Shown in pieces: positions 35,258 through 52,620 of a DNA stretch of 64,000 nt (its first letter is position 1; every line of letters begins with the position of its first letter). Location: positions 868,001 to 932,000 of the forward strand of contig NZ_FQVU01000002.1 of the NCBI RefSeq assembly GCF_900129455.1. The letters run 5' to 3'. The translations under genes were made by a program, and so were the position numbers. This DNA comes from Jatrophihabitans endophyticus (GTDB lineage Bacteria > Actinomycetota > Actinomycetes > Mycobacteriales > Jatrophihabitantaceae). Under the pieces are notes generated by a model. The model was given only the letters and a program-made list of their open reading frames with translations. It was not told the origin of the DNA and ran no database searches.

Positions 35258-36388
35258 ATGAAGCGCGTCGTCACGGCGATCGCCTGGGCACTGCTGGTCG
35301 TCGCGGGGACGATGCCGAGCGCGGCCGCCGCCCCGCGACCCGGCGGAACGTCGCCGACGGCCACTGCCGCCGCGAGGAAGGCGTCCTGCACGGCGAGCAG
35401 GGCCGCCTTCCCGTTCCCGTTCGCCAAGACCGCCCGCGGGCTGCGACAGGTGGACTTCGCCCAGCTCACCGTGAACCGGGGCAGCTCGTGGGCGGGCACC
35501 GCCTACCGCTACCAGGACAGCCGGATCTACCTGATCACCTGGCGCGCGGGTCACCGGGCGTCGGTGATCGCCAGCTATCGCTACGTCGACGTGCCCTTCG
35601 ACCCGCAGTACTCGGTGACTCCCGTCGGTGTCACGCCGTCCGGGGCGATCGTCGCCGCGGTCGAGGACCCGCAGCCGCGCGACGCCGACCTGGGGGTGGT
35701 GCCGGTGAAGGGCCTGTACTGGGCCCACGGTCGTAAGCAGCATCTCGCCCACCGCCACTCCTGGCGGTCCTACGTGCCGACCGCGGTGACGAGTGCCGGA
35801 GCAGTGGTCGGTTACGCGATCACCGGAAGCACGACGAAGCCGCACTACTGGGCGGTGCGATGGGCCCGTGCCAACTCGGCCAAGCCGCACGTCTTCGCCG
35901 ACCTCGGACGCGTCCCCGCGACCGTCACCGCCACGGCCGAGGGTGATGTCGTCTGGACCCGATCCGACGGATACGCCTACGCCCGGCTCCGTGACGGAAC
36001 CGTGCACCAGTTGCGTCTCGGGACGGCCGCCTCCGCCGACTACGTGTCGCGTTACCTCTACCCACGGCTCGCCGGCAGCGGGGCGGTGTTCTCGTCCGAG
36101 CAGGACGGCGTCCACCGGTGGACGTTGAGCGGGGCCGGCGCGGGACCGATCTACGGCACGGTCGTGACGAGGTATCCCGGGTTCCCGTCGGCGGTCGGCC
36201 CGCGGGGAGACCTCGTGCTCGCCTCGGGTCGGGGCGGTCGGCTGATCACGTCGCGCGGTGCGCTCGCCCGGCTGCCGCAGCAGTACCTCCGCGACGTCGG
36301 GCTGCCCTCCCGGGCGGTCGACGCGCACGGAACCGTCGCCTACACGTCGCGCACGGACCGGCACGTCCACCTCCTGCGCTGCCGGTGA
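35258..36388 (+). CDS. Secreted protein of unknown function
   Basis: 376 residues. Signal peptide about 1-25 (KRVVTAIAWALLVVAG, then AAA-AP). The mature part is rich in aromatic residues and short strands with repeating patterns such as G-YWA-GR, SAGAVVGYAI, YWAVRWA, GDVVWTRSDGYAYARL and HRWTLSG. That spacing (about 45-50 residues) suggests a beta-propeller or HAF-type repeat protein. AGGGAGGGAAG precedes the ATG. No catalytic motif seen; the neighbours (rnj, map) do not help. Confidence 0.65.
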   Translation: MKRVVTAIAWALLVVAGTMPSAAAAPRPGGTSPTATAAARKASCTASRAAFPFPFAKTARGLRQVDFAQLTVNRGSSWAGTAYRYQDSRIYLITWRAGHRASVIASYRYVDVPFDPQYSVTPVGVTPSGAIVAAVEDPQPRDADLGVVPVKGLYWAHGRKQHLAHRHSWRSYVPTAVTSAGAVVGYAITGSTTKPHYWAVRWARANSAKPHVFADLGRVPATVTATAEGDVVWTRSDGYAYARLRDGTVHQLRLGTAASADYVSRYLYPRLAGSGAVFSSEQDGVHRWTLSGAGAGPIYGTVVTRYPGFPSAVGPRGDLVLASGRGGRLITSRGALARLPQQYLRDVGLPSRAVDAHGTVAYTSRTDRHVHLLRCR

Positions 36389-37565: not shown

Positions 37566-38822
37566 ATGCGCAACCGGCCCGGCGCGATCGTCGCCACCCT
37601 CGTCCTGCTCGCCGTGACGGCGATCGCCGCCGGAGCCATCGCCTCGCCGCGTCCGGCGGCCGCCGCGGCCGGCAGCGCACCGTTCGTCGCGACCCTGGCC
37701 ACCCACGTCGACACCGCCGACCAGGAGTCGGCGGCGGGCCTCAAGGTCGGCATGCTCGAAGTGCACTGGAACCGGTTCGAGCCGCAGCGGGGCGTCGTCG
37801 ACACCGACTACGCGACGGGCATCAAGGCGCAGTTCGACAAGCTGCGCAAGGCCGGCATGCAGGTCACCCTCGGGCTCGGGCTGCACTTCACCCCGTCGTG
37901 GATCCTGAGCTACAAGTCCAACCACCTGGTCGACAACCACGGCACGTACTCGACGCAGGCCGACTTCGTCTTCAACCGTGCGGTGCGCGCCCGGGGCAAC
38001 TGGTACCTCGCGCAGCTCGACCGCTGGCTCGGGCTGGAGAACATGTGGGCGGTGCGCGTGACCTCCGGCGGGTCGAGCGAGCTGCTGTACCCGTCGTCGA
38101 CGTTCTGGGCGTACTCGCCCGGCGCGCAGACCGCGACGAACCGGCCGAAGACCTTGGCGGCGAATCCGATGCCGGGCTGGCGGCCGGGGGACAGGTCGAC
38201 CCGCGACCAGCGCAACGCGTGGGCGCACTGGTACGTCGGCGCGCTCGCCGACGTCGCCGACTGGCAGATGGCGACGGTGACGAACCTGGGGTTCCGCGGC
38301 TATTTCCAGCCGGTCACACCGGGGCAGGGCATCCGCCCCGGGCAGTGGAACGCGCAGATGGCGGCCGGGCTCGCCGAGGGCACACTCGGCCGCGGCGCCG
38401 CCTGGTACGTGCTCTACGCCTCGCTGCGGGAACGCACCCACGTCACCGCCTACCTCTCCTCGCTGGCCGACGGCACCGCGGACGACGACCTGTGCACGGC
38501 GGCGGACGCGGCCAAGCCGCTGCAGGGCACGGACTTCTCCCGCTGGTCCGGTGCCCGCTGGCTGGCCTGGGTGGCCCACTACAACCACTTCACGATCGCC
38601 GGTGAGCCACCCGGGCGACCCGCGACCGCCGGTGCCGCGCTCACGCACTACCGCGACGGCTCCGCCGCGGGCCTGCTCGCGACCGCGATGAGACAGGCGA
38701 CGTCGTGCGGTTTCCTCGGCGTGTACTGGGCGCACGACGACCAGGTGTGGGACGGCACGATGCCGCTGCGGACGCTGGCGGCCTACACCTCACCCTCGGC
38801 GACGGCACCAGCGGCGGCATGA
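37566..38822 (+). CDS. Secreted glycoside-hydrolase-like protein, paralogue 1
   Basis: 418 residues. Signal peptide (about 1-32, RNRPGAIVATLVLLAVTA, cut near AAA-AG). The remainder looks like a TIM-barrel glycosidase: GLKVGMLEVHWNRFEPQRG early, GMQVTLGLGLHFTPSWI, WAVRVTSGGSSELLYP with a glutamate at a barrel-strand end, and CGFLGVYWAHDDQVWDGT near the end. GH42/GH5-like folds have this order, but I cannot place the family. Close relatives at 38969 and 47276. AAAGGACC lies before the ATG. Probably acts on extracellular polysaccharide made by this locus (inference). Confidence 0.7.
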   Translation: MRNRPGAIVATLVLLAVTAIAAGAIASPRPAAAAAGSAPFVATLATHVDTADQESAAGLKVGMLEVHWNRFEPQRGVVDTDYATGIKAQFDKLRKAGMQVTLGLGLHFTPSWILSYKSNHLVDNHGTYSTQADFVFNRAVRARGNWYLAQLDRWLGLENMWAVRVTSGGSSELLYPSSTFWAYSPGAQTATNRPKTLAANPMPGWRPGDRSTRDQRNAWAHWYVGALADVADWQMATVTNLGFRGYFQPVTPGQGIRPGQWNAQMAAGLAEGTLGRGAAWYVLYASLRERTHVTAYLSSLADGTADDDLCTAADAAKPLQGTDFSRWSGARWLAWVAHYNHFTIAGEPPGRPATAGAALTHYRDGSAAGLLATAMRQATSCGFLGVYWAHDDQVWDGTMPLRTLAAYTSPSATAPAAA

Positions 38823-38910
38823 GCGGGCGCGCCCTGAGTGCGACCTGGGTGCGACACGGGTGCGACACGCGGGTCGAGCGCGAGTCCCGGCGGGACCATT
38901 GTCCCTTGCG

Positions 38911-38937
38911 TTAGATCTGTGTTAGCTTAGCCGACAA
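38911..38937 (+). promoter_or_regulatory. Sigma-28-type promoter for glycosidase-like paralogue 2
   Basis: TTAG, 15 nt, GCCGACAA, in an A/T-rich patch 31 nt before ATG 38969. A housekeeping alternative overlaps it: TTGTCC (38900-38905), 17 nt, TTAGCT (38923-38928). Either way this is the clearest promoter region in the polysaccharide locus. Confidence 0.5.
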
Positions 38938-38968
38938 GGCGGGGGTCGCCTCGACGAAGGACCCGCCC

Positions 38969-40441
38969 ATGCACCGCACCCGCCGCCGGATCCCCCACCC
39001 GCTGCTCGGTGTACTCGCCGTCGGCGTGACCGGCACGCTCGTGGCCGGTGCCGTGACCAGCGGTGCCGACGCCAAGGGCCGCGGCTACGCCATCGGTCAG
39101 GGCGTCTCGACCTCGCTGCCGAGCCCGCGTGCCGCGAGCACCACCGCGGCGCCGGCGCGCCCCACCACCGCCACCAGCCCGACGGCCACCGCCACCAGCC
39201 CGACCGCCACCAGCCCGACCGCCACCCCCAGCGCCTCCGCGGCCGCCGCCTCGACTCCGTCGGCCACCGCCACCGCGGCGGCGACGGTCGGCAAGCCCTT
39301 CCTCGGCACGCTGGTCACGCACTCGGGCACCGCCGGGCAGGAGTCCCAGGCAGGGCTGAAGATGGCGATGCTCGAGGTGAGTTGGCGCAGCCTGCTGCCC
39401 AGGCAGGGGCAGGTCGACAGCGGCTACGCCACCGGCCTGGTCAAGCAGCTCAAGGCCTTCCAGGCCGCCGGCATGCGCGTCACCCTCGGCCTCGGCCTGC
39501 ACTACACGCCGGCCTGGGTGCTGGCGCTGGCCGGCAGCCGGCTGGTCGACCAGACCGGCACCGTGTCCGCCCAGGCCGACCTGGTCTTCAACCAGACCGT
39601 GCGCGACCTCGCCGTCGACTACCTGCGCGCGCTCGACAAGATCGTCCCGTTCGAGAACTTCTGGGCCGTCCGGGTGACCTCCGGCAGCGGGGCCGAGATG
39701 CTCTACCCGGCCTCCGGGACGTACTGGGCCTACTCCGCCGGCGCGCAGAACGGCCCCACCCGGCCGGTCACCATGGCCGCGAACCCGCTGCCCGGCTGGC
39801 GCCCCGGCGACTCGGCGAGCGAGGCCCAGCGGCGTGCCTGGGCCGACTGGTACCTCGCCGCGCTCGACGACGTCGCCGACTGGCAGATGGACGTCGCCAC
39901 CTCGCTCGGCTTCACCGGCTACTTCCAGATCGTCACCCCCGGGCAGGGGCTGCGGCCCACGCAGTACACGAAGCTGGTCGCCGCCGGGCTGAGCAACGGC
40001 CTGCTCGGCCGCGGCGCGGTGTGGAGCGTCGTCTACGCCGGGCTGCGCCACCGCACCCACGTCACCGCCTACGTCAGCTCCGTCGCGGACGGGTCGGCCG
40101 GCAACGACGTCTGCCAGGCCTCGGACGCGACGGTCGCGCTGGACTCCGGGACCGCCTACTACTTCTCCGCCACCCGCTACCTCGCCCGCGTCGCGGCGGT
40201 CAACGGCTTCACCGTCGCCGGCGAGACGCCCGGCTATCCCGCCTCGGCGTCGGGCCGGGCGGCGTACGCCGACGCGTCGGACAGCGGGCTGCTCGCCACG
40301 GCCTACCGCCAGGCCAGCGGCTGCCGCTTCCTCGGGTTGTACTGGGCGCACGACGACCAGGTGTGGGACGGCACAGTCCCGCTCTCCCGGCTCGCCCAGT
40401 ACTCCTCGACGAGCGCGGCGCTGCCGGCCCTCGCGAGCTGA
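38969..40441 (+). CDS. Secreted glycoside-hydrolase-like protein, paralogue 2
   Basis: 490 residues. Signal peptide (about 1-33), then a Thr/Ser/Pro/Ala linker (about 45-105) with repeated TSPTAT, a likely wall-spanning or glycosylated stalk. The catalytic-like domain matches paralogue 1 block for block: GLKMAMLEVSW, GMRVTLGLGLHYTPAWVLAL, WAVRVTSGSGAEMLYP, NPLPGWRPGD, DDVADWQMDV, VTPGQGLRP, RTHVTAYVSSVADG, CRFLGLYWAHDDQVWDGT. Preceded by a sigma-28-type promoter and terminated by the hairpin at 40440. Substrate unknown. Confidence 0.72.
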   Translation: MHRTRRRIPHPLLGVLAVGVTGTLVAGAVTSGADAKGRGYAIGQGVSTSLPSPRAASTTAAPARPTTATSPTATATSPTATSPTATPSASAAAASTPSATATAAATVGKPFLGTLVTHSGTAGQESQAGLKMAMLEVSWRSLLPRQGQVDSGYATGLVKQLKAFQAAGMRVTLGLGLHYTPAWVLALAGSRLVDQTGTVSAQADLVFNQTVRDLAVDYLRALDKIVPFENFWAVRVTSGSGAEMLYPASGTYWAYSAGAQNGPTRPVTMAANPLPGWRPGDSASEAQRRAWADWYLAALDDVADWQMDVATSLGFTGYFQIVTPGQGLRPTQYTKLVAAGLSNGLLGRGAVWSVVYAGLRHRTHVTAYVSSVADGSAGNDVCQASDATVALDSGTAYYFSATRYLARVAAVNGFTVAGETPGYPASASGRAAYADASDSGLLATAYRQASGCRFLGLYWAHDDQVWDGTVPLSRLAQYSSTSAALPALAS

Positions 40442-40482
40442 GCCGGGCGGCGTCACCGGATGGGGGTGACGCCGTCCGGCTC
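40440..40482. terminator. Bidirectional hairpin between two convergent genes
   Basis: Arms of 18 bases with one mismatch: GAGCCGGGCGGCGTCACC and GGTGACGCCGTCCGGCTC, 7-nt loop. It covers the stop codons of both the glycosidase-like gene (plus) and the flippase gene (minus), so it can serve both directions. Confidence 0.7.
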
Positions 40483-42168
40483 GACCATCGGGGCCGCGGC
40501 CGGCGGCTGGTCGGCGCCGGAGTGCGCGTGCCGCGAGACGTAGGCGTTGTAGGTGTGGCGCCGCGGGGCGACCCGGGAGCGCAGCGCGCGGTAGAGCCCG
40601 CGCAGCTCGCGGTACGCGGGCGGCCCGGTCACCCGCAGCGACGCGACGTACACGCCGAGGCCCAGCACCGCCTCGACGGCGAGGAACAGCACGACCGCGG
40701 CGACCGAGCGTCCGGGATCCCAGCTGCGGCCGACGCCCCAGCACACGCCGAACGTGACGACACCGGCGAGCATCGGCCCCGACCAGTGCCCGAGGTAGGT
40801 GCGGATCGAGATGCCGACGTGGCGGCGCAGCGTGCGCAGCCGCAGCGGCCACGCCGCGTACTGCCGCAGCACCACCGCGAACGACACCACGATGACGCCG
40901 AACGGGACGGCGGCGGCGACGGCGCCGAGCCCGATGACGCACTGGACGATCGTGATGACCAGCGCGGCCCGGGCGGCACCGACCGCGATGAGCGCGTTCC
41001 GGTCGAAGACGATGACCGCGTTCAGGCACCCCATCAGGCACAGGATCTGCATGACCGGCGCCGCGGGTTCCCACTGCGGTCCGAACACGAACGGCAGCGA
41101 GACGTCGGCGGTCGCGGCGATGATTGCGAACGTCGCGATCGCGGTGGCGGCGCCCATGCTGGTGAGGCCGTAGAAGGCGTCGCGCAGCCGCTCCCGCGTC
41201 GACTGCAGCTTGGACAGCGTGGTCAGTGACACCGCGTCGATCACCGACGTCTGGACGTCGGTCAGCATCGTCACGATGCGCGTGCCGACGAAGTAGTAGC
41301 CGAGCGGGACCGGCCCCAGCGCGGCGCCGACGATCAGCTTGTCGCCCTGCGCGTTGGCGAGGCCGATCAGCTGGATGCCGAGGACGCTCACCCCCGTGTC
41401 GCGCAGCTCGCGCGCCGAGCGCCGACTCACCCGCAGGCCGGGACGCCACTTGGTGACGGTCCACAGGAACACGACGGCGACGAACGACGTCACCACCGAC
41501 TGCACCACGATGCTCCACACGCCGCCGCCGAGGAAGGCGACCACGACGCCCGCGACGCCGCCGATCACCGAGCCGTAGAGCGTGCGCATCGTCAGCGAGC
41601 GGAACTGGAAGTCCCGCTCCAGCAGGGCCTGCGGCGTCCCGGCCAGCGCGGTGAACAGCACCATCGGCGACATCCCGACGAGCACGGCGCCGAGCTGCGG
41701 TTGGTCGAAGGCCGAGGAGGCGAGGGGCGCGAGCGCGGCGACCAGCGCCATCAGGACCAGCGCCGAGCCGACCGAGATCCAGAATGCGGTGTTCCGGTCG
41801 GCGTCGTCGACGTGCTTCTTCTGGATCAGCGCGGTCGAGAACCCCTGGTCCGAGAGCACCTGGAACAGCGTGACGAAGACGGTCGCCAGCGCGGCCAGGC
41901 CGAGCTCGGACGGCGCGAGCAGCCGGCCGAGCAGGGTGAAGACGACGAGCGTCGCGAGCTGGTTGCCCCACTTGCCCAGGGCCACCCACAGCGCGGAGCG
42001 GATCGCGGTGCCACGCAGATCACCGTGCGGATCGGGCGGCGGAGAGATCGGCGCACCGGGCTGCGCAGCGGGTGACGGGGCGGGTGACGGGGCGGCGGTG
42101 GGGACCGGCGACGGACGTCGCGGTGCGGGAACCGGGGAGGGCCGGCTCCGGATGGGGGACGCGGACAT
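40453..42168 (-). CDS. Wzx/RfbX-type oligosaccharide flippase
   Basis: 571 residues. A Pro/Ala/Ser-rich cytoplasmic N-terminus (1-48), then about 12-14 membrane helices. Family wording: LGKWGNQLATLVVFTLLGRL, LAPSELGLAALATVFVTLFQ, SDQGFSTALIQKKHVDDADR, GTPQALLERDFQFRSL. This is the MATE-like polysaccharide transport superfamily that moves lipid-linked repeat units across the membrane. The C-terminal ~60 residues are basic, then Ala/Pro-rich. It converges with paralogue 2 and is followed upstream by the pyruvyltransferase on the same strand. Confidence 0.87.
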   Translation of the reverse strand: MSASPIRSRPSPVPAPRRPSPVPTAAPSPAPSPAAQPGAPISPPPDPHGDLRGTAIRSALWVALGKWGNQLATLVVFTLLGRLLAPSELGLAALATVFVTLFQVLSDQGFSTALIQKKHVDDADRNTAFWISVGSALVLMALVAALAPLASSAFDQPQLGAVLVGMSPMVLFTALAGTPQALLERDFQFRSLTMRTLYGSVIGGVAGVVVAFLGGGVWSIVVQSVVTSFVAVVFLWTVTKWRPGLRVSRRSARELRDTGVSVLGIQLIGLANAQGDKLIVGAALGPVPLGYYFVGTRIVTMLTDVQTSVIDAVSLTTLSKLQSTRERLRDAFYGLTSMGAATAIATFAIIAATADVSLPFVFGPQWEPAAPVMQILCLMGCLNAVIVFDRNALIAVGAARAALVITIVQCVIGLGAVAAAVPFGVIVVSFAVVLRQYAAWPLRLRTLRRHVGISIRTYLGHWSGPMLAGVVTFGVCWGVGRSWDPGRSVAAVVLFLAVEAVLGLGVYVASLRVTGPPAYRELRGLYRALRSRVAPRRHTYNAYVSRHAHSGADQPPAAAPMVEPDGVTPIR

Positions 42169-42292
42169 GGCTCAGCCGTGCTGACGCCGTCGGATGCCCT
42201 TCGTCCCCATGACCCGCGATTCTATCGGCCCCGACGGATCACCGCGGGGGTCTCGCTTGGGGTTCTGTCATGCGCGTCGCGGCCCGCGACGG

Positions 42293-43087
42293 TCAGCGCC
42301 AGAGGTCCTCGGGGAACGCGTCGAGCAGCGGCTGCGGATCCCACTGCGGCGGTCGGACGCCGCCCTGCTCGATCGCCTCCTCCGCCGACGTGGCGAACTC
42401 GACGTCCGAGCGGCCCGTCCCGGCGTAGTAGTCGACGTACTTCAACGGCGGCTCGGCACCGGCACGGACGAGCCGGGCGGGAATGCCCAGCGACTCGGCG
42501 ACGACCGCCCCGTGCAGCGAGGAACCGACCACCAGCTCGCTGCGGGCGATGCGTTCGAGGCACTCGTGCACCGGCGTGCGCGGGTCGAGCACGCGGTCGT
42601 CGGTGGTGTCGGTCGCGGCGGCGTCGTGCAGGTTCGGCACGATCGTCACCGCGTGGCGCTTGTCGGCCGCGTAGTCGCGCAGCTCCGGGAGCACGACCGG
42701 GGCGAGCAGCCCGGGATCGCCGTAGACGTCCGGCACGGCGATGCCGCGCTCGCGCAGCCAGGCCGCGGTGCGGGGGCCGCGGACGGCACGGACGTCGAGC
42801 TGCCGGAAGCGGTACTCCCGCGGACGCACCTTGAGGTTCACGCCGCTGCCCCACACCGTGTCGCCCTCGCGCGCCTTGTGCAGGATCGACCCGACGCTGA
42901 GCAGCCGTCGCTGCGCGGGCGCGGTGCGTGGGTCGATGCCACGCTGCCGCAGCAGGCCGGCCACCACGATGGGGCCGAGCAGGTCGCCGAAGTTGCCGAC
43001 CCGCGGCCCGACCGGCAGCAGCTCGCCCAGCAGCCCGAGACGTGCGATACGTCTCGGGTTCCAGTGCACGACGGTCACGCCCGGCAT
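42293..43087 (-). CDS. Polysaccharide pyruvyl transferase family protein
   Basis: 264 residues. Motifs of the PS_pyruv_trans family: VGNFGDLLGPIVVAGLL, LLSVGSILH, TVWGSGVNLK, VRGPRTAAWLRERGIAVPD, VYGDPGLLAPVVLPEL, VVGSSLHGAVVAESLGIPAR. Adds pyruvate ketals from phosphoenolpyruvate to sugar residues in exopolysaccharides, giving a negative charge. ATG 43087 is chosen because the domain begins a few residues later; the frame is open to 43192. Divergent from the transferase at 43140 with a 52-nt gap. Confidence 0.87.
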   Translation of the reverse strand: MPGVTVVHWNPRRIARLGLLGELLPVGPRVGNFGDLLGPIVVAGLLRQRGIDPRTAPAQRRLLSVGSILHKAREGDTVWGSGVNLKVRPREYRFRQLDVRAVRGPRTAAWLRERGIAVPDVYGDPGLLAPVVLPELRDYAADKRHAVTIVPNLHDAAATDTTDDRVLDPRTPVHECLERIARSELVVGSSLHGAVVAESLGIPARLVRAGAEPPLKYVDYYAGTGRSDVEFATSAEEAIEQGGVRPPQWDPQPLLDAFPEDLWR

Positions 43088-43139
43088 GTCAGCATCGTTG
43101 CACGGACCCGACCACCCGCCCCGAGCCGAGGAGCGACTC

Positions 43140-43988
43140 ATGGCCGACACCGTGTTGACCTTCGTCACGTCCCTGCGCCATCCCGACACCACCGACGACT
43201 ACGCGGGGGTCGAGCACCTGCTCGGGCAGACGCTGCGCTCGCTCGACGCCCAGCTGGACCGTCGTTTCGAGGTCGTCGTCGTCGCCAACCGGCCGTACTC
43301 GCCGCCGCCCGGCCTGGGTTTCGCCGTGACGACGGCGACGGTCGGCTTCGCCGCGCCGCCGCGCGAGTTCGCCACCAAGGACGACAAGCACGCGGCGATC
43401 AAGCTCGACAAGGGGCTGAAGCTGGCCGTCGCGATGACTCGCAGCCGGGCGACGCACGCCATGTGCCTGGACTCCGACGACTTCGTCAGCCGACGGCTGG
43501 TGGGCTTCGTCGCCGACCACGGCGGGGACGCGCCCGGGTGGTTCGTGGACCGCGGTGTCCGCTACGACGTCGTCACCGGGCTGTTCCGCCCGCAGCGGCA
43601 CTTCAACGACGTGTGCGGGACGTCGCTGGTGTGGCGGCGCGACCTGATGCCCGACGCCGACCTCGGCCCGGACCCCGCGGCGGACGACGTGCTCGCCGCC
43701 TTCGGCCACGACCGGGTGGTCGAGGAGCTCGGCTCGCACCGCACGCTGCGGCGGCGCTACGGCTTCGCGGCCGTGCCCTTCCCGGCCGCGGTGTACGCGG
43801 TCAACCACGGGCAGAACCACTCCGGCAGCGGCGCACCGATGCTGGGGGTGCCGCTCGGCCGGCGGCGCGCGGCCGAGTTCGGCATCGACGTCCCCGACCC
43901 GGCGGCGACGCGTCGCGCGGCCGTCGCCCAGCTGCGTCCCGCTCACCTGCGCCGCGTCGTTGCCACCGTCACACGGCGGGCGGGCTGA
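43140..43988 (+). CDS. Glycosyltransferase, GT2-like
   Basis: 282 residues. Begins with LTFVTSLRHPDTTDDYAGVE followed by LLGQTLRSLDAQ, reminiscent of rhamnosyl/galactosyl transferases of the GT2 type, and contains the metal/nucleotide motif MCLDSDDFVS (D-S-D-D) about residue 110. Lys-rich KDDKHAAIKLDKGLKLA precedes it. No membrane helix. GAGGAG lies 7 nt before ATG 43140; the open frame runs further back across the divergent gene. Likely adds one sugar of the repeat unit. Confidence 0.72.
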   Translation: MADTVLTFVTSLRHPDTTDDYAGVEHLLGQTLRSLDAQLDRRFEVVVVANRPYSPPPGLGFAVTTATVGFAAPPREFATKDDKHAAIKLDKGLKLAVAMTRSRATHAMCLDSDDFVSRRLVGFVADHGGDAPGWFVDRGVRYDVVTGLFRPQRHFNDVCGTSLVWRRDLMPDADLGPDPAADDVLAAFGHDRVVEELGSHRTLRRRYGFAAVPFPAAVYAVNHGQNHSGSGAPMLGVPLGRRRAAEFGIDVPDPAATRRAAVAQLRPAHLRRVVATVTRRAG

Positions 43989-44015
43989 GCGGCGGGTGCG
44001 TTGACGAAACCTCGG

Positions 44016-44021
44016 TAGCAT
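44016..44021 (+). promoter_or_regulatory. -10 box TAGCAT, leaderless start for the GT4 gene
   Basis: TAGCAT ends 7 nt before ATG 44029; it sits in the loop of a 5-bp hairpin (CCTCG/CGAGG). TTGACG at 44001 is too close to be its -35. Confidence 0.35.
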
Positions 44022-44028
44022 CGAGGCA

Positions 44029-45141
44029 ATGGTGCGTATCGGCGTCGACGGCCGGGTCCTGGTCGACCGCTACCACGGCATCGGACGGGTGACCTTCGAG
44101 CTGTTGTCGATCCTCGTCGACGACCCGCAGCTCGAGTTCGTGATCTTCGTGGACCCCGGTGAGCCCGCACACCGCTTCGACGTCTCGTCGCTGCGCCGGC
44201 CGAACGTGCGCTTCGTTGACTTCCCGGTGCCGCTGCCCTCACCGGTGCAGTTCGCGCGCTGGCCGCTCGTGCTGCGTCGTGAGCCGGTCGACCTCATGCT
44301 CTTCCCGTACCAGCTGGGTGCATGTCCGGTCGGCGGCCCGCGGCAGCTGACGATCGTGCACGACTGCCTGTTCGAGCAGAACCAGACGTACGCGCCGACC
44401 CACCGGGTGGCCGCACTGCACCGCCGGCTCACCGGCCTGCTGCTGCGCCGTGCCGCGGTGGTCGTGCCCAGCCGAGCGACCGCTGCGGACGTCGAGCGCT
44501 TCTACGGCGTGCGGGTCCCGGCGGACCACGTCGTGGAGTGGGGCGTGTCGCCCCGGTTCGCGGCCGCGCCCACCGACCCGACGGCCCGGCCGCCGGTGAC
44601 GGGGCCCTACCTGCTGCACGTCGGCGCCCGTCGGCCGCACAAGCGGGTGCCCTTCCTCGTCCGCGTGCTCGCCCGCCTCGACCCGTCGATGCAGCTCGCG
44701 CTCGTCGGCAGCGCGGACGACCGCTGGCCGGACCACACCATGAAGGTGGCGGCCGAGCTCGGGGTGGCGGACCGCGTGCACGACCTGTCCGAGGTCACCG
44801 ACACCGAGCTGCTGACGCTCTACCGGCACGCGCACGCCTTCGCCTACCCGTCGGTCACCGAGGGCTTCGGGCTGCCGCTGCTCGAGGCGATGGCTGCCGG
44901 CGCGCCGGTCGTCGCGAGCGACGTCCCGGTGTTCCGCGAGATCGGTGCCGACGCCGCGGAGTTCGCGCCCCTGCGCGACGCGGGCAGGTGGGCGGCGGCG
45001 ATCGAGCGCGTCGGCGACCCGGCCCACCGGGCCCGTCTCGTCGAGCGCGGCGCGGCGCTGGCCCGGGAGGCGACGTGGACGCGGGCCGCCGGACAGCTCG
45101 GGGCGTTGCTGCGCGGTGTCCCGGCCGGCGGCGACACGTGA
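44029..45141 (+). CDS. Glycosyltransferase family 4
   Basis: 370 residues, two Rossmann-like halves. Acceptor half: IGVDGRVLVDRYHGIGRVTF and FPYQLG. Donor half: YLLHVGARRPHKRVPFLVRV, LALVGSADDR and the nucleotide-sugar motif YPSVTEGFGLPLLEAMAAGA with E-x7-E. Typical of retaining mannosyl/rhamnosyl-type transferases using GDP or TDP sugars. First of four plus-strand genes with overlaps (4 nt, 8 nt) or a 1-nt gap. Confidence 0.88.
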   Translation: MVRIGVDGRVLVDRYHGIGRVTFELLSILVDDPQLEFVIFVDPGEPAHRFDVSSLRRPNVRFVDFPVPLPSPVQFARWPLVLRREPVDLMLFPYQLGACPVGGPRQLTIVHDCLFEQNQTYAPTHRVAALHRRLTGLLLRRAAVVVPSRATAADVERFYGVRVPADHVVEWGVSPRFAAAPTDPTARPPVTGPYLLHVGARRPHKRVPFLVRVLARLDPSMQLALVGSADDRWPDHTMKVAAELGVADRVHDLSEVTDTELLTLYRHAHAFAYPSVTEGFGLPLLEAMAAGAPVVASDVPVFREIGADAAEFAPLRDAGRWAAAIERVGDPAHRARLVERGAALAREATWTRAAGQLGALLRGVPAGGDT

Positions 45142-46157
45142 GCGCCCCACCGCTGCGGGTGCTGCAGTCGTTCACCCCCGACCGGGGCGACGTCAGCGTC
45201 AACCCGTACACCAGCCTGCTCGAACGCTCGTTACGTCCGCGCTGCGAGGTGCACCGCTTCACCTGGCCGCGGGCGCTGGCCGGCCGTTACGACGTCCTGC
45301 ACTGCCACTGGCCCGAGCACCTCATCGGCAACCGGCAGTGGCTGCGCCGCACCGTCGCGCAGGTGCTGTTCGCGCTGCTGCTGGTCGTCGTCCGCGTGCG
45401 ACGGATCGCCGTCGTGCAGACGATCCACAACGTCGAACCGCACGCGGTGCCGAGCCGGATCAGCGCCGCGCTCCTGCGTCGCCTCGACACGATCGTGGGG
45501 GATCGCATCTATCTGCACGACACCCGCGACACCGACCCGCGCTCGCGCGCTCACGTCTTCCCGCACGGCGACTACGACGACTGGTACGCCGAGCGCCCCC
45601 GGGTACCGGCGCAACCCGGCCGGCTCGTCCACTTCGGCCGCGTGCACCGGTACAAGAACGTCGACGGCCTGCTCCGCGCGGTCGCGGAGTCACCCGACGC
45701 GGCGCTGCGGCTCGTGGTCGCCGGCAGCGTCGTGGACGGCGAGCTCGAACGCGAGCTCCGCGCCCTCGCCGCCGCGGACCCCCGCGTCGACCTGCGGCTC
45801 GAGCCGGTGCCCGACGACGAGCTGAGCCGCATCGTCACCTCGGCGGAGGCGGTCGTGCTGCCGTACGAGTACCTGTACAACTCCGGCTCGCTGCTGCTCG
45901 CGCTCACCTTGGGGCGCCCGGTGGTCGTGCCGCGCTCCGAGCTCGGCGACGGCCTGGCCGACGAGGTCGGGCACGACTGGGTCGCGACCTACGATCCGCC
46001 GCTCGACGGGCAAACGCTGCGCGCGGCACTGAACAACTTGCGCGCAGCGGCGCAAAAGCGTGGGGACCGGCCCGATTTCGTCGACCGGGACTGGGACGCC
46101 CAGGCCGAGCGGTTGGTCTCGGTGTACCGCGATGCCGTGGCGGCGCGTCGTGGCTGA
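45138..46157 (+). CDS. Glycosyltransferase (GT-B fold)
   Basis: 339 residues. N-terminal LRVLQSFTPDRGDVSVNPYT, DVLHCHWPEHLIGNRQWLRR and a hydrophobic patch VLFALLLVVVRVRRIAVV that may touch the membrane. The C-terminal half has LVHFGRVHRYKNVDGLL, LRLVVAGSVVD and VVLPYEYLYNSGSLLLALTL, the donor site with S in place of the classical E-G-F-G. Related wording occurs in glucuronosyl/beta-mannosyl exopolysaccharide transferases. GTG overlaps the previous stop (GTGA). Confidence 0.78.
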   Translation: MSAPPLRVLQSFTPDRGDVSVNPYTSLLERSLRPRCEVHRFTWPRALAGRYDVLHCHWPEHLIGNRQWLRRTVAQVLFALLLVVVRVRRIAVVQTIHNVEPHAVPSRISAALLRRLDTIVGDRIYLHDTRDTDPRSRAHVFPHGDYDDWYAERPRVPAQPGRLVHFGRVHRYKNVDGLLRAVAESPDAALRLVVAGSVVDGELERELRALAAADPRVDLRLEPVPDDELSRIVTSAEAVVLPYEYLYNSGSLLLALTLGRPVVVPRSELGDGLADEVGHDWVATYDPPLDGQTLRAALNNLRAAAQKRGDRPDFVDRDWDAQAERLVSVYRDAVAARRG

Positions 46158-47274
46158 CCCCCTCCTCGTACTGGTCGACGACGGGTTGGTCGACGGCGGC
46201 GGCCAGCTCGGCCTCGGCCGCTACCTGCGGCAGCCGAGCGGTCGACGCCGGCAGCTGCTCCTGCTCGCCCCCAACCGCGTCGCCGACGCCGCGGCCGACG
46301 GCGACGTGCCGGCCGTCGTCCTGCAACCCGGCCGCACCCGCCGTCACCTGCCGCTCGCGTGGCTCGGTCTGGTCCGGCGCCACCTGCGCCGCGCCGACGA
46401 CGTGGTCGTCGCCAACAGCCTGCTGGCCGCGATTGTGCTCGCCGCGACGCCCAAGCGGGGCCGGCGCTTCGTCTACTACATGCGCGAGGACTTCGCCGAC
46501 GGGTGGATCACCGGGGTGCGGCACTGGATCGTCCGCCGGCTCACCTTCCCGCGCTTCGACGGCTATCTCGCCAACAGCGCGTGGACGGGTTCGACGCTGC
46601 CGCCGGGCCGCCGCGGCCGGCGGCACGTCGAGGTCGCCCACCCGCTGTGCGGCATCGACGCCGCGGAGCCGCCGTCGCGTGTCGAACCCGCCGACGGGTC
46701 CGCTGCCGCGCCCGCGGGCGAACTGCGGGTGCTCTCGCTCAGCCGCATCGCGCGGTGGAAGGGCATCGACCTCGTCGTCGACGCGGCCGTGGAGGTGGCG
46801 ACGCGGGGCACGGCTGTCCGCCTCACCGTCGCCGGGTCGGTCGCGGCGGGCGACGACGACTACGCGGCCGACCTCCGGCGCCACGCGAACCCGCCCGGGC
46901 TGCGCGTCGACTTCGTCGGTCACGTCGCCGACGTCGACGCGCTGCTCGCCGAGCACGACGTGCTGGTCGTCGCGTCGCGTCATCCCGAGCCGTTCGGTCA
47001 GGTCGTCATCCAGGCGCTCGCGGCCGGTCTCGCCGTCGTCGCCAGCGACCAGGGCGGTCCCGTGGACGTACTCGCCGGCGAACCGCTCGGTCGGCTGGTG
47101 ACCCCCGACGACGCGCACGCGATCGCCGACGCGCTCGACCGGCTCGCGGCCGAACCCCCCACCCCGGACGTCCGGCAGGAGACGGCGCTGCGCACCAGGC
47201 GCGACCACCGCGACAGCGTGCTCGCCCGGCGTTTCGAGCAGGCTGTCACCGCGAGCCTGCGCCCCGGTACGTGA
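46150..47274 (+). CDS. Glycosyltransferase family 4
   Basis: 374 residues with GTG 46150. N-terminal VLVDDGLVDGGGQLGLGRYL, then VVVANSLLAAIVLAATPKRG and YYMREDFADGW. The donor domain has RVLSLSRIARWKGIDLVVDA, TVAGSVAAGDDDY and VVASRHPEPFGQVVIQALAAGL (E-P-F-G-x-V-x-x-Q/E). ATG 46132 in the same frame is an alternative; with GTG 46150 the overlap with the upstream gene is 8 nt. Confidence 0.83.
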   Translation: MADPLLVLVDDGLVDGGGQLGLGRYLRQPSGRRRQLLLLAPNRVADAAADGDVPAVVLQPGRTRRHLPLAWLGLVRRHLRRADDVVVANSLLAAIVLAATPKRGRRFVYYMREDFADGWITGVRHWIVRRLTFPRFDGYLANSAWTGSTLPPGRRGRRHVEVAHPLCGIDAAEPPSRVEPADGSAAAPAGELRVLSLSRIARWKGIDLVVDAAVEVATRGTAVRLTVAGSVAAGDDDYAADLRRHANPPGLRVDFVGHVADVDALLAEHDVLVVASRHPEPFGQVVIQALAAGLAVVASDQGGPVDVLAGEPLGRLVTPDDAHAIADALDRLAAEPPTPDVRQETALRTRRDHRDSVLARRFEQAVTASLRPGT

Positions 47275-47275
47275 G

Positions 47276-48598
47276 GTGGCCCGGCGTGCCCGGTCCCGCG
47301 TGCTGCTCGGCCTGCTCGCAGCCGTGGCGGTGGCGGTCGCGCTCGTGGTGGTGCTGGTGACGCGCGACGGTGGCTCCGACGCCTGTGCCGACCTGCCGGC
47401 CGGGCAGGGAATCTCCCGCGTCGGCACCCCCTCGGCGGCACCGTTCGTCGGCACGTTGGGCACCCACCCCGAGACGGCGGATGACGAGTCGCGTGCCGGC
47501 ATCAAGGTGGCCATGGTCGAGCTCGCGTGGCGCGACTTCGAGCCGGCCAAGGGTCGGTTCGACGCGGCCTACGCCGACCGTGTCTGCGCACGGATCCGCA
47601 CCTACGAGCAGGCCGGTATGCAGGTCACCCTGGGGCTGGGGCTGCACTACGCGCCGGCGTGGCTGCTCGCCATCCCGGGCAGCCGCTTCGTCGACCAGGA
47701 CGGCCATCGCTCCGACGAGCCGGATCTCGTCTTCAACCGTGACCTGCGGCGGCTGGCCGACCGCTACCTCGCGAAGATCGACGAGCTGATCGGCCTCCAG
47801 CACTTCTGGGCCGTCCGCGTCACGGCCGGCGGCAATGCCGAGCTGCTCTACCCGCGGGGCAACCGGTACTGGGCGTTCAGCGACGGCGCGCAGGGCGGTC
47901 CGCAGCGTCCGGCCTCCATGGCCCCCAACCCGCTGCCCGGGTGGCGCCCCGGAACCGGCGACACCTCGCCCGCCCTGGCGCAGCGCGAGGCGTGGGCCAG
48001 GTGGTACGTCGCAGGCCTGACCGACGTCGCGAACTGGCAGCTGGGCGAGCTGCGCCGACTCGGCTTCACCGGCTACCTGCAGCTGCTCACGCCCGGCCAG
48101 GGCATCCGTCCCGCACAGGTCGCCCCGCGGGTCGCAGCGGGCCTGCCGAACGGGTTGTTCGGCCGCGGTGCCGTGTGGTCGTGGGTCTACGCCGGGCTGA
48201 CCGTGCGCGACGGCGTCACCGCCTACGTGTCGTCGGTGGCCGACGGCTCGGGCGACGACGACGCGTGCGGCCCCGACGACGAGGCGGTGCGGCTCGAGTC
48301 CCGCACGGTGCTGGACTGGTCCGCGGCGCGCTGGATCAGCCGGCTGGCCCGCCACAACGGCTTCAGCGTGGCGGGCGAGGTCCCCAGCCTGCGTGACTCG
48401 GCGAAGCGCCGCGCCTACTACCGCGACCCGTCCGACGACGGTCTGGCGGCGCGCGCCTACGCGCAGGCGAAGGGCTGCGGCTTCCTCGGGCTGTACTGGG
48501 CCCACGACGACCAGGTGCGCGACGGCACCGTGAGCGTCGACGTCCTCGGCCGGCTCGCCGGGCCCGACGCGCTACCCCCGGCGCCGGCCGGGGGCTGA
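47276..48598 (+). CDS. Membrane-anchored glycoside-hydrolase-like protein, paralogue 3
   Basis: 440 residues. N-terminal basic stretch and hydrophobic helix (about 9-29), then Asp/Gly and no clear cleavage site, so it is likely an anchor. The domain matches paralogues 1 and 2: GIKVAMVELAWRDFEPAKG, GMQVTLGLGLHYAPAWLL, WAVRVTAGGNAELLYP, NPLPGWRPG, LTPGQGIRPAQ, GVTAYVSSVADG, CGFLGLYWAHDDQVRDGT. GTG start one base after the GT4 gene, so it belongs to the glycosyltransferase operon. That co-transcription is the best evidence that the family acts on this polysaccharide. Confidence 0.72.
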   Translation: MARRARSRVLLGLLAAVAVAVALVVVLVTRDGGSDACADLPAGQGISRVGTPSAAPFVGTLGTHPETADDESRAGIKVAMVELAWRDFEPAKGRFDAAYADRVCARIRTYEQAGMQVTLGLGLHYAPAWLLAIPGSRFVDQDGHRSDEPDLVFNRDLRRLADRYLAKIDELIGLQHFWAVRVTAGGNAELLYPRGNRYWAFSDGAQGGPQRPASMAPNPLPGWRPGTGDTSPALAQREAWARWYVAGLTDVANWQLGELRRLGFTGYLQLLTPGQGIRPAQVAPRVAAGLPNGLFGRGAVWSWVYAGLTVRDGVTAYVSSVADGSGDDDACGPDDEAVRLESRTVLDWSAARWISRLARHNGFSVAGEVPSLRDSAKRRAYYRDPSDDGLAARAYAQAKGCGFLGLYWAHDDQVRDGTVSVDVLGRLAGPDALPPAPAGG

Positions 48599-50308
48599 CG
48601 ACCGGCGCGCGGTGACGACGCCCACCCCGCCGACCACGACGAGCGCGCCGGCGAGGATCGAGTAGTAGACGAGGGCCGACGCCGCGGTGTGGGTGATGCG
48701 CGTCGCGCGGGCGGCGGCCGCGGTGCGGCAGACCGCGGGGTCGGCGCGCACCGCACTCGCCGCACCGACCCGGTAGAGCGAGATGGTCCCGTAGCTGCGG
48801 CTGTCGACCGAGTGCACGAGCGTGCCGTACCGCTTGGCCCACACCGCGAACTGCGGACTCATGTTGCCGTAGGCGTGCGAGGCGTCCTTGCTGGACACGA
48901 CGAACAGCCGGGTTCCCCGCGCCACGGCGCGGCGGCCGTCGTCGTACCCCGTGACGTTCGCGTCGGGCAGCACCGCGCGCCAGCGCTCGGAGTTGCCGCT
49001 CGCGTTGATCGCCACGCACCCTGGTGTCGTCCGGCTGACGTAGGAGGCCATCCGGGCGGTGCCGTCGTCGTCGTGCGCGACGTAGTAATAGCCCCACGTG
49101 CCGGCCCCGACGACGATGCCGGCGAGGGCCACGAGGGCGAGCACCGGGCGCATCACGCCGGCGAACCCGCGTCGCCGCTCGGCGCCGCCGACCACGACCA
49201 CGGCGTAGACGGTCGCGATCGCCGCGGGCGGCGCGCTGTACATGATCAGCTGTTCGTTGCCCTGGCCGAAGGCGAAGGAGAACGCGACGAACGCGTAGTC
49301 GAGGACGCCGAAGCAGAGGACCAGGTGATGTGCGAACGGCAGCCGGTCCGTACGTGCGAACAGCCGCCTGCGGGCGACGAGCACGAGCAGGGCCAGCGCT
49401 CCCGCGGCGAACACGAGGTAACCCGCCAGGTACTGCACGTACGTCGCCTTGATGTCGTCGAGCGGGCCGGCCGTCCCGGCGGGGCGGTTGGGCTTGTTGA
49501 CCCCACTGGTGTGCAGGACGCCGAACAGCCGGCGCAGCGACACCGACTCCTGGTCGAGGAAGTCGCGGCCGTGCCCCTGCGTCACCGACCAGACGAAGAA
49601 CGAGCTCCAGACCAGCCCCCCGACCGCGACGGCCCCGAGCTGGGTCGCCGCGGCGCGCCACTCGCGGCGCACCAGTGATGCGAGCAGGGGAGCGGCGCCG
49701 GCGAAGATGACGGTCTGCTTGACGAGGCAGCCGACGCCGATGAGCGCGCCGAGCGCGCAGATCTGCACCAGCGCCGGTCGCGTGCGCACGCGCAGGGCGA
49801 CCAGCACCACCAGGCCGCTGGCGAGCACCGCGCCGGTCTCGAGCAGCACCGCGCGGCCGAAGGAGAGGACGAAGCTGCTGAACGCAAAGATCGCCATGGC
49901 GAGCGTCGGCATCCACGTCCGGACACGCACCCCGGCGGAGCGGATCGCGGCCGTGGTGACGAGACCGACCACCCACGCCGCCACGGCGACGAGCACGGCC
50001 TGCAGGTAGCGCAGCGAGCGCAGCGCCGCGAGCGTGTCCGAGTCGCGGTGGCCGGTGACGAGGTCCCACAGCCCGGCGAGCAGGAAGTAGAAGGGTGGAT
50101 GGACGAGGAACGGCCGCGACGCGGTGGCGATGGCGTTGTCGCCGATGACGCGCTGGCTCACCGTCGTGTACGTGATTTCGTCGAGGCTGAAGTCGTAGGA
50201 CTTCTGCAGATTGACGACGTAGACGATCAGGACGATCGCGGCGGGCAGCAGGGTGACGATGCCCGGCCGCCGCCACCAGCGTGCGGTCGTTTCCCCGTGA
50301 TCAGACAT
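48572..50308 (-). CDS. Membrane glycosyltransferase, GT39/ArnT-like
   Basis: 578 residues, about 10-12 membrane helices. The first extracytoplasmic loop has SYDFSLDEITYTTVSQ; the DE pair is where GT39/GT83-type (PMT/ArnT-like) enzymes carry their catalytic acid. Next, FLVHPPFYFLLAGLWDLV resembles the HPP motif of that fold. These enzymes transfer sugars from polyprenyl-phosphate donors outside the membrane. Its 3' end overlaps paralogue 3 tail-to-tail by 27 nt, with hairpin 48575-48594 shared. Last gene of a three-gene minus-strand operon. Confidence 0.75.
   Translation of the reverse strand: MSDHGETTARWWRRPGIVTLLPAAIVLIVYVVNLQKSYDFSLDEITYTTVSQRVIGDNAIATASRPFLVHPPFYFLLAGLWDLVTGHRDSDTLAALRSLRYLQAVLVAVAAWVVGLVTTAAIRSAGVRVRTWMPTLAMAIFAFSSFVLSFGRAVLLETGAVLASGLVVLVALRVRTRPALVQICALGALIGVGCLVKQTVIFAGAAPLLASLVRREWRAAATQLGAVAVGGLVWSSFFVWSVTQGHGRDFLDQESVSLRRLFGVLHTSGVNKPNRPAGTAGPLDDIKATYVQYLAGYLVFAAGALALLVLVARRRLFARTDRLPFAHHLVLCFGVLDYAFVAFSFAFGQGNEQLIMYSAPPAAIATVYAVVVVGGAERRRGFAGVMRPVLALVALAGIVVGAGTWGYYYVAHDDDGTARMASYVSRTTPGCVAINASGNSERWRAVLPDANVTGYDDGRRAVARGTRLFVVSSKDASHAYGNMSPQFAVWAKRYGTLVHSVDSRSYGTISLYRVGAASAVRADPAVCRTAAAARATRITHTAASALVYYSILAGALVVVGGVGVVTARRSSAPGRRRG
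48575..48594. terminator. Hairpin in the overlap of two convergent genes
   Basis: CCCCCGGC, GCCG loop, GCCGGGGG: perfect 8-bp G+C stem inside the region coding for the C-terminal residues of both convergent genes. Confidence 0.45.
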
Positions 50309-50364: not shown

Positions 50365-52620
50365 TCAGGCCGCGAAACGCTCCTTCGGAAGTCCGCGCAG
50401 GACGGCCATGGCCCGGTCGAGGTCGGCGTCGCCGAGCCGGCGAGCGTCGTCGCTGCTCGAGACGCCGATGACCGAGACCGTGCCACGGTTCTTGCGCATG
50501 GGGATGAAGATGGCCGACGTCGCACCCTGCTCGTCGAGCAGGATCTTGGCGCCGGCGTCCAGCCCGCCGGCCGAGGCGACGACCTCGGGCTCGCTCAGGT
50601 CGAAGGCGTACCGCGCCGCGTCGTAGTCGCTCGTCGCGATCTGCTCGCCGCCGCACCAGACGCGGATCGAGGACTGCCGCGACGTCCGGGTGACCAGCGC
50701 GACGCTGACCTTCGCGTCGGGCAGCGCGTTCTCCAGCGCGTGGACGACCTCCTGGGGGCCGCTCCACCGCTCGGGGACGGCCAGCCGACCACGTTCCTGC
50801 GAGCGGGTGCGGACGCCGTCGCTGAAGACCGCCTCGTAGCTGGAGGCCATCCCGTCCACCGTGAGCGAGCGGGCCCGCTCCACCGAGGCGCGGCTGAGCC
50901 GGTCCAGCTTGCCGCGGTCGTGCTGCAGCTCGGCCAGCGAGTCGCGCAGCGAGTCCACCGAACCGGGTTCGACGACGACACCGGTGGGCGAGGCGACCTC
51001 GGCCACGCCGGGCAGGTCGGACGCGATGGGCACGCAGCCGGCGGCCATGCCCTCGGCGAGCACCATGCCGTACGCCTCCGCGCGGGTCAGGCTCGGCAGC
51101 GTGATGACGTCGTGGTTGCCGTAGGACTGCCAGAGCTCGTCGTCGGACAGTCGTCCGGCCATGGTGATGTTGGCGGCGCCGTGGCTGCGGATGCGCGTCG
51201 ACAGCTCGTCGCGCAGCGGGCCGTCACCGACGATGGTGAGGTCGATCTCGGGCAGCTGGGCGACGGCGTCGATGAGCACGTGCAGGCCCTTGTAGCTGCG
51301 CAGCTGCCCGACGAACAGCACGCGCATACGCGGGGACGCCGCCCGCACCGGTGCCTTGGCCGGTGCCTCGACCGCCCACGGGATGACCTCGACCGCCTTG
51401 CCGTCGGTGCGCCCGATCTTGGACTGGTACGCGCTCGAGCTCACCACCACCGCGTCCGCGGAGTGCGCGAGCGCCTTCGCGAGGCGGTTGTAGATGCCGC
51501 ACCACCGTTCGAGTCGCGGGATCGCGAGGTCACTGTGGTGCGTGTACACGACGGCGGGGCGCTCGGCCCGGCGCATCGTGCGGATCAGCAGCAGGAACGT
51601 CTCGCTGATCGTCGGCACCGGTCCGTGCAGGTTGACGACGTCGTACGTCGGCAGGTCCCGGGCGACCCGCGGCCAGAAGAAGGCGAAGGCCGACAGCCGG
51701 ATCTCGCGACGCATCAGCCGCGGGAAGTCCTGCCGGCTGGTGATGTCGACCTCGTGCCCTCGCTCGCGCAGCCCACGCTGCAGCATCTCCACGGTCTTGG
51801 CGATGCCGCTCACGACCGGCGGCGCCTCGGAGGTCAGGATGAGCACCCGCAGCCCGTCCGGCGACTCGCCGCGGACGCGTCGGGCGGCGTCGCCGCTACG
51901 GCCGCGGGACCGGCGCCGCAGCGCGAACGTGTGACGGACGAAGCGCAGGCCCTCTCGCACGTCGGACTTCGAGTCGCCGGAGTGCCGGTCGGAGAAGGTG
52001 TACGGCACGTCGACCAGGCTGTCCCAGCTGCCGCGCGCGAGGATCTCCATCAGGATCTTGTAACCGTCCGGGCGCAGGCTCGCGCCGGCGATCACGCCGC
52101 GGCGCACCGCGAAGAACCCCGAGAGGGGGTCGGTGGTGTGGCGGATGCGCGGCAGCAGCCGGCGCGCCAGCGTCTTGGACAGCCGTGACACGCCCTGGCG
52201 GTAGCGGCCGTCGAGACCGGCGGTGGAGCCGTCGCCCACGTAGCGGCTCGCGACCGCGACGTCGGCACCCTCCAGCAGGGCGGCGTGCAGCTCCGGGACG
52301 ACCGCCGGCGGGTGCTGCAGGTCGGCGTCCATGACGACGACGGCGTCGCCCGTGCTCAGCGCGAATCCGCGCGTGACCGCACCGCCGAGGCCGCCGGTCC
52401 GGCTCTCGCCGCTGCGGTGGCACAGCTTGACCCGGCTGTCGCGGCGGCAGAGGGCCTCGATGACCTGCGGGGTCTCGTCGTCGGAGTCGTCGACGAAGAG
52501 CAGTTCCCAGGTGACGTCGTCACCGAGGGCAGCGGCGACGCGCCGGTGGCACTCGTCGATGTTGGTCGCCTCGTGGCGGGTCGGGACGACCACGCTGAGG
52601 TCGTAGGTCGTGGGGCTCAT
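50365..52620 (-). CDS. GT2-GT4 bifunctional glycosyltransferase with C-terminal GAF-like domain
   Basis: 751 residues. Residues 1-240: GT2 of the polyprenyl-phosphate mannosyl/glucosyl synthase type (YDLSVVVPTRHEATNIDE, LFVDDSDDET, VVVMDADLQHPP with D98-x-D100, GSWDSLVDVPYTFSDR). Residues 255-600: GT4 (RVLILTSEAPPVVSGIAKTV, RVLFVGQLRSYKGLHVLIDA, TRAEAYGMVLAEGMAAGCVP). Residues 610-751: a beta-alpha domain with SVALVTRTSRQSSIRVWCGG and TSAIFIPMRKNRGTVSVIGV that looks like GAF. GAAGGA precedes ATG 52620. It may make a lipid-linked sugar for the GT39-like enzyme encoded next. Confidence 0.75.
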   Translation of the reverse strand: MSPTTYDLSVVVPTRHEATNIDECHRRVAAALGDDVTWELLFVDDSDDETPQVIEALCRRDSRVKLCHRSGESRTGGLGGAVTRGFALSTGDAVVVMDADLQHPPAVVPELHAALLEGADVAVASRYVGDGSTAGLDGRYRQGVSRLSKTLARRLLPRIRHTTDPLSGFFAVRRGVIAGASLRPDGYKILMEILARGSWDSLVDVPYTFSDRHSGDSKSDVREGLRFVRHTFALRRRSRGRSGDAARRVRGESPDGLRVLILTSEAPPVVSGIAKTVEMLQRGLRERGHEVDITSRQDFPRLMRREIRLSAFAFFWPRVARDLPTYDVVNLHGPVPTISETFLLLIRTMRRAERPAVVYTHHSDLAIPRLERWCGIYNRLAKALAHSADAVVVSSSAYQSKIGRTDGKAVEVIPWAVEAPAKAPVRAASPRMRVLFVGQLRSYKGLHVLIDAVAQLPEIDLTIVGDGPLRDELSTRIRSHGAANITMAGRLSDDELWQSYGNHDVITLPSLTRAEAYGMVLAEGMAAGCVPIASDLPGVAEVASPTGVVVEPGSVDSLRDSLAELQHDRGKLDRLSRASVERARSLTVDGMASSYEAVFSDGVRTRSQERGRLAVPERWSGPQEVVHALENALPDAKVSVALVTRTSRQSSIRVWCGGEQIATSDYDAARYAFDLSEPEVVASAGGLDAGAKILLDEQGATSAIFIPMRKNRGTVSVIGVSSSDDARRLGDADLDRAMAVLRGLPKERFAA

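Follow-up and report, generated by a model that had tools for sequence, protein, structure and literature searches.

What are three related, glycosidase-like proteins doing in one surface-polysaccharide locus of an actinobacterium? The locus lies in a 64,000-nucleotide stretch of the Jatrophihabitans endophyticus genome (NCBI RefSeq assembly GCF_900129455.1, contig NZ_FQVU01000002.1, positions 868,001 to 932,000 of the forward strand), which we call the window. A preliminary description of its sequence had reported paralogous proteins encoded at 37566, 38969 and 47276, held in three different ways, and had left their glycoside hydrolase (GH) family unassigned. We find that the three proteins belong to a GH14-like family that is not beta-amylase proper; they are predicted to be (beta/alpha)8 barrels closest to beta-amylase (GH14). 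On balance we favor the view, from sequence and models, that they are extracellular GH14-like inverting hydrolases that would cut an alpha-linked bond in the polysaccharide of their own locus, trimming or releasing the polymer.

37566 to 38822, + strand: paralogue 1 (P0001), 418 amino acids, predicted GH14-like barrel with an N-terminal signal peptide by eye; putative catalytic residues acid Glu172 (codon 38079) and base Glu347 (codon 38604)
38969 to 40441, + strand: paralogue 2 (P0002), 490 amino acids, signal peptide by eye, Pro/Ser/Thr/Ala-rich linker and predicted GH14-like barrel; putative catalytic residues Glu243 (codon 39695) and Glu419 (codon 40223)
39131 to 39286, + strand: low-complexity stalk of P0002, residues 55-106 (52 residues, 98% P/S/T/A)
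47276 to 48598, + strand: paralogue 3 (P0003), 440 amino acids, probable signal anchor and predicted GH14-like barrel, source of the better model; putative catalytic residues Glu189 (codon 47840) and Glu368 (codon 48377)

The paralogy is borne out by the open reading frames and by the alignment, in which P0001 shares 57% identity with P0002 and 49% with P0003. The three are the sole matches at E ≤ 1 in their own genome (4.48-Mb assembly, 98.5% complete).

The fold was predicted with AlphaFold from alignments of just eight sequences, for P0001 as for P0003. The second model, that of P0003, has a predicted local distance difference test score (pLDDT) of 80.6, a predicted template modeling score (pTM) of 0.84 and eight barrel strands. 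Its first 23 ranks in Foldseek are all beta-amylase chains (E 3.1e-12 to 8.8e-10), GH42 coming next at 1.7e-8. The structural alignments made with VIA-align likewise place beta-amylases at ranks 1-9, led by the Bacillus cereus enzyme (Z 26.7, root-mean-square deviation 3.2, 326 aligned); bacterial beta-amylases score Z 26.4-26.7, the best chain of any other family 24.0 and GH42 23.3. The first model, that of P0001, is poorer (pLDDT 68.3, pTM 0.73), and its Foldseek list has a beta-amylase on top with GH42 and GH35 interleaved. A fold search of BFVD gave barrel matches (best E 4.2e-6), with no beta-amylase named among the matches listed. The preliminary description had called for structure prediction and a fold search; the predicted fold is a barrel rather than a non-barrel, and with two invariant glutamates in it the glycosidase-like nature of the proteins is upheld.

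These glutamates, Glu172 and Glu347 (P0001 numbering, as for all family residues below), are kept in all 24 aligned family sequences, as are Arg164, Trp181, Trp205, Tyr223, Gly255 and Gly346. One of the two is the glutamate of the VTSG..E-LYP block that had been singled out earlier. The model places the acid glutamate 7 residues past strand 4 within a loop of low confidence; strand 7 ends with the base glutamate. The GH14 beta-amylases (B. cereus 1b90/1vep, Paenibacillus 3voc, soybean 1bya), the nearest predicted fold to the window family, have the same arrangement, with the acid glutamate in an E-x-x-Y-P block past strand 4 and the base glutamate in a GE(N/S/...) block at the end of strand 7. 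When a 23-row family profile, cut to omit residues 1-65 of the mature protein, was searched against the PDB (E ≤ 10), 24 of the 26 matches were beta-amylases, the best at E 0.0043 and the others at 0.058 to 0.62, many of these being near-identical soybean chains; the remaining two were N-acetyltransferases at about 0.9. This profile pairs sE-l-YP with GELRYP and GEnpG with GENA of the Paenibacillus and B. cereus enzymes, so that both glutamates are collinear. A profile comparison with soybean beta-amylase (query sequence checked against 1bya) covers 205 columns through the acid glutamate with a probability of 69% and E 4.4e-5, ending before the base glutamate; from strand 4 to the acid glutamate the alignment is free of gaps. 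The catalytic glutamates of the soybean enzyme are given as 186 and 380 in an excerpt of PMC8774843.

Unlike GH14 beta-amylases, the family has no lid loop. Beta-amylases require a flexible loop, HXCGGNVGD (excerpt of PMC8449922), and also an inner-loop Thr342 (excerpt of PMC8774843). The HXCGGNVGD motif occurs in 0 of 24 family members; a Ser or Thr occupies a column after strand 6 in 20 of 24, its equivalence to Thr342 being judged by eye. PF01373, the Pfam family for GH14, matches none of the 24 members at E ≤ 0.1 and nothing in the window's own genome at E ≤ 10. Because the lid-loop motif is missing and PF01373 is not reached, we call the proteins GH14-like rather than GH14: the family question is narrowed, and a full GH14 assignment fails. 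Most members also differ from beta-amylases in looking secreted or tethered and in being encoded in polysaccharide loci. Among the members scanned, no Pfam, NCBIfam or PHROG family spans the whole domain, and NCBIfam gave no match over its cut-off for the three window proteins.

Which polymer might such enzymes act on? The genes around the three paralogues are those of a polysaccharide locus, with glycosyltransferases (GT) of several families:

40453 to 42168, - strand: MOP-type polysaccharide flippase (PF13440, E 1.9e-69)
42293 to 43192, - strand: polysaccharide pyruvyl transferase (PF04230, E 7.9e-11)
43140 to 43988, + strand: possible glycosyltransferase, assignment and start codon by eye (no Pfam match at E 0.01)
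44029 to 45141, + strand: GT4a, group-1 glycosyltransferase (Pfam)
45138 to 46157, + strand: GT4b, group-1 glycosyltransferase (Pfam)
46150 to 47274, + strand: GT4c, group-1 glycosyltransferase (Pfam), 1 base upstream of P0003
48572 to 50308, - strand: GT-C-like membrane protein (PF09594 GT87, below its cut-off)
50365 to 52620, - strand: GT2-GT4 fusion glycosyltransferase (Pfam), start chosen by eye
52724 to 54061, - strand: NAD-dependent sugar epimerase/dehydratase (PF02719, PF01370)

P0003 comes fourth and last in a run of closely spaced genes, GT4-GT4-GT4-paralogue, in which the GTG codons of GT4b (45138) and GT4c (46150) overlap the preceding stops. It does not itself overlap this operon, as had been stated: it starts at 47276, 1 base past the stop codon (47274) of the GT4 gene before it. 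At its 3′ end it overlaps the convergent gene at 48572-50308 by 27 bp. Among the called window genes outside the locus, phmmer found no match to the locus glycosyltransferases and flippase at E 1e-4.

The association with glycosyltransferases extends to other genomes. We examined 18 loci in stretches of about 13-40 kb, with genes called by a home-made caller; two of them, at contig ends in genome G008, may be one locus. By phmmer or Pfam, at least one glycosyltransferase gene is present in 17 of the 18, a raw count rather than an enrichment over background; the eighteenth is a prophage tail region. Orthologues thus do occur near polysaccharide genes, and in nearly all of the loci examined, the opposite of the refuting outcome named in the preliminary description. 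Close homologues of GT4a (E ≤ 1e-60) occur among 200 genomes of the order only in G000, G008, G459 and G464, and homologues of the GT-C gene (E ≤ 1e-60) occur in the same four. These are exactly the genomes with relatives of the paralogues better than 1e-100; the other four genomes with relatives stop at 7.3e-59. The threshold of 1e-60 was our choice, up to 10 (GT4a) and 6 (GT-C) candidates were scored per genome, which makes these match counts lower bounds, and the four genomes span three genera and hence are not independent. The three draws of 200 genomes are taken to be the same genomes, as is suggested, not proven, by the rows listed. In G464 a family relative, GT4a and the GT-C gene are consecutive on one strand.

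A further copy in G464 lies in phage surroundings. This genome has four cellular copies and one divergent copy (E 1.1e-40; L041:7652-9484), which is 28% identical to a cellular copy (BLASTP 2e-29) and keeps both glutamates. A tape measure gene on the same strand ends about 12 kb upstream, with a tail protein gene nearer, and genes for terminase, portal, head protease and major head protein precede the tape measure gene (L057:1627-13698). The prophage copy has no hydrophobic N-terminus: its best 17-residue hydropathy mean in the first 200 residues is 1.0, compared with at least 1.69 in the other 23 rows. A PDB search with this protein alone gave chance-level matches only. From its sequence and position, the natural inference is that it would serve as a tail-borne depolymerase, and the presence of both glutamates in a prophage tail region counts for reading the family as polysaccharide hydrolases.

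Putting these elements together, the flippase would export the polysaccharide built by the surrounding locus, and one membrane-held copy together with the secreted copies would then trim or release it, cleaving an alpha-linked glycosidic bond by single displacement (inverting) with Glu172 as acid and Glu347 as base. GT4 is a retaining glycosyltransferase family. Because the GT4 partners are of a retaining family, the linkage is probably alpha, which is compatible with a beta-amylase-like hydrolase. Trimming or release is a role that we propose by analogy with PelA-type hydrolases of exopolysaccharide operons, which resemble the window family in being encoded alongside synthesis genes; the analogy is one of role only, and unlike PelA the window locus has several differently tethered paralogues. 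In the Pel system the hydrolase generates a secreted low-molecular-weight polymer (excerpt of PMC9894940).

Several observations weigh against this reading, in addition to the raw nature of the 17-of-18 count and the loss of the lid loop. The untrimmed 24-row profile finds GH42 (3.1e-6) and GH5 endoglycoceramidase (9.5e-6) as its best PDB matches, with beta-amylases at 0.037 to 0.79 across the catalytic part, mixed with other glycosidases. The sequence matches to beta-amylases are weak even at their best, and the second-glutamate segments are not significant alone. In VIA-align the first model gives a near-tie (Z 22.1 for GH14, 21.9 GH35-like, 20.6 GH42); for the second model, plant beta-amylases (Z 24.9 to 22.9) overlap the GH35-like and GH42 scores, and this model is least certain in the loop that carries the acid glutamate, where residues 131-136 have pLDDT <50. 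Part of this evidence favors an alternative that we regard as unlikely, in which the proteins would be retaining beta-glycosidases of clan GH-A (GH42/GH35/GH5-like) and, as PslG and endoglycoceramidase do, would act on a beta linkage. Pfam offers a single noteworthy family, PF02449 (GH42): P0003 scores 22.7 bits, above the cut-off of 21, over profile positions 21-93 of 376, P0001 and P0002 fall under the cut-off, and at E ≤ 0.1 the profile matches 20 of the 24 sequences (best 6.1e-8). Structures of an exo-glucosaminidase, a beta-1,2-glucosyltransferase and GH42 also reach Z 23-24 in VIA-align. The GH42 beta-galactosidases (1kwg) and the GH35-related 7vl0, a beta-1,2-glucosyltransferase that we take to be GH35, indeed have the barrel and N-terminal sequence similarity in common with the window family. 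However, the GH42 and GH5 profile matches extend only over about positions 29-135 of the profile, in the N-terminal portion of the barrel, these families rank lower in structure, and beta-amylases are better by more than one order of magnitude in Foldseek E value. In clan GH-A an Asn directly precedes the acid/base glutamate. Because an Asn stands before the acid glutamate in only 1 of 24 members, the clan is disfavored. GH42 was accordingly rejected as a full assignment (N-terminal match, Asn-Glu pair absent in 23 of 24), as was GH5 endoglycoceramidase as the family, its match being confined to the same short stretch.

A glycosidase-fold beta-1,2-glucosyltransferase among the nearest structures also brings up transglycosylases, which would attach the completed polysaccharide to an acceptor, wall or lipid, instead of hydrolyzing it. 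Membrane and secreted forms near a flippase, with no ligase noticed among the genes scanned, would suit such a role, which we nevertheless think improbable: the beta-amylase-like glutamate pair suggests inversion, a mechanism that does not lend itself to transglycosylation, and a prophage tail copy fits degradation better. We give still less credence to non-catalytic, polysaccharide-binding pseudo-enzymes that organize the matrix. The lid loop is missing here as in the inactive plant protein BAM9 (excerpt of PMC8774843), but in inactive BAM4 and BAM9 the second glutamate is substituted (same excerpt), whereas both glutamates are kept in 24 of 24 members, among them all three proteins of the window and the one from the prophage.

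The preferred reading, hydrolysis of the locus's own polysaccharide, leaves the question of why there are three copies. Tethers were read by eye from the N- and C-termini. P0001 has a cleavable signal peptide, P0002 a signal peptide and a stalk, and P0003 a probable signal anchor. The stalk described earlier is real, and the term "wall-spanning" for P0002 is not established, since a plausible cleavage motif ends its signal peptide and no other anchor is visible by eye. A membrane anchor for the third paralogue is likely: its N-terminus has a mean Kyte-Doolittle hydropathy of 3.13 over 17 residues, the highest of the 24 rows. Tethers differ in other multi-copy genomes too. Of the G008 copies, one carries a Lys/Ala-rich tail at its C-terminus and another combines a lipobox with SSGPVPG repeats; in G459, one copy ends in a Ser/Thr-rich tail. 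The long Ala/Lys-rich C-terminal tail of the G008 relative at L011:10001-11740 is unusual in a secreted hydrolase and may bind an anionic polymer.

In the tree, the window trio forms one clade with moderate support (94/86), and copies from G459, G464 and G008 are intermixed, also at moderate support, except for a firm G464 trio. The single clade therefore suggests that the copies arose by duplication within this lineage and not as a conserved three-part set, so that of the graded set of secreted, wall-spanning and membrane-held forms proposed earlier, only the diversity of tethers stands. The two patterns together imply that sets of several copies probably originated on more than one occasion, with tether type changing readily.

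The family is rare and found only in actinobacteria. Matches occur in 4 of 24 genomes of the same family and, at the level of order, class and phylum, in at least 8 of 200, 4 of 394 and 1 of 346 genomes. Each count includes the window's own genome, and the last three are lower bounds, with 8, 4 and 5 candidates scored per genome, respectively. One pattern scan of genome contigs confirmed five relatives, in one Frankiales metagenome-assembled genome and four Streptomyces. P0003 had no match in plasmid or phage collections, the prophage protein (P0004) had none in phages, and three scans of viral contigs by short peptide patterns confirmed no relative. True GH14 over the PF01373 cut-off was absent from the 24 same-family genomes (control over the cut-off in 2 of 14); at E ≤ 1e-6 none was found in 396 phylum genomes, where the control was silent too, so that absence does not follow.

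A literature search turned up no description of such a family, most subscription journals lying outside its coverage. PssZ of Listeria is termed an exopolysaccharide-specific glycosidase (excerpt of PMC7479077). It belongs to another family, GH126, which never turned up in any of the searches, no direct comparison being made. It is possible, though we advance it tentatively, that we are dealing with a new beta-amylase-fold family devoted to the surface polysaccharide that the cell itself makes and not to starch, with repeated duplications giving secreted, stalked, lipoprotein, membrane-held and Lys/Ala-tailed sets, plus a prophage tail-region depolymerase directed against a polysaccharide-making host. 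To our knowledge, GH14 has a single activity, that of beta-amylase on starch. If the proposal is true, the range of the GH14 fold widens to polysaccharide-synthesis loci, with the catalytic pair kept and the starch-gripping lid dropped, and actinobacteria gain a counterpart of PelA/PslG as well as a depolymerase linked to a surface polymer that can be identified. The GT4 and GT-C genes that co-occur with the family, along with the prophage copy, open the substrate hypothesis to direct testing.

Some minor observations remain. Sub-cut-off PF01373 matches in 7 of 24 same-family genomes (six at profile positions 177-221, one at 24-86) belong to a different family; the six that match only at 177-221 are open reading frames of 660-731 amino acids (L045-L050). 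Beside a Streptomyces copy, at L014:11893-16500, a PAS-GGDEF-EAL protein is fused in frame to a class I/II aminotransferase; open reading frames of similar length occur in L012, L013, L015 and L023 (domains scanned in L014 only). In the window, paralogue 1 is preceded by a methionine aminopeptidase-like gene, upstream of which 35258-36388 encodes a probably secreted protein of unassigned family with a sub-threshold DUF3459 match. In G464 (C3, L038:2857-10190), two tandem family copies come after genes for a methionine aminopeptidase-like protein and a PIG-M-like mannosyltransferase.

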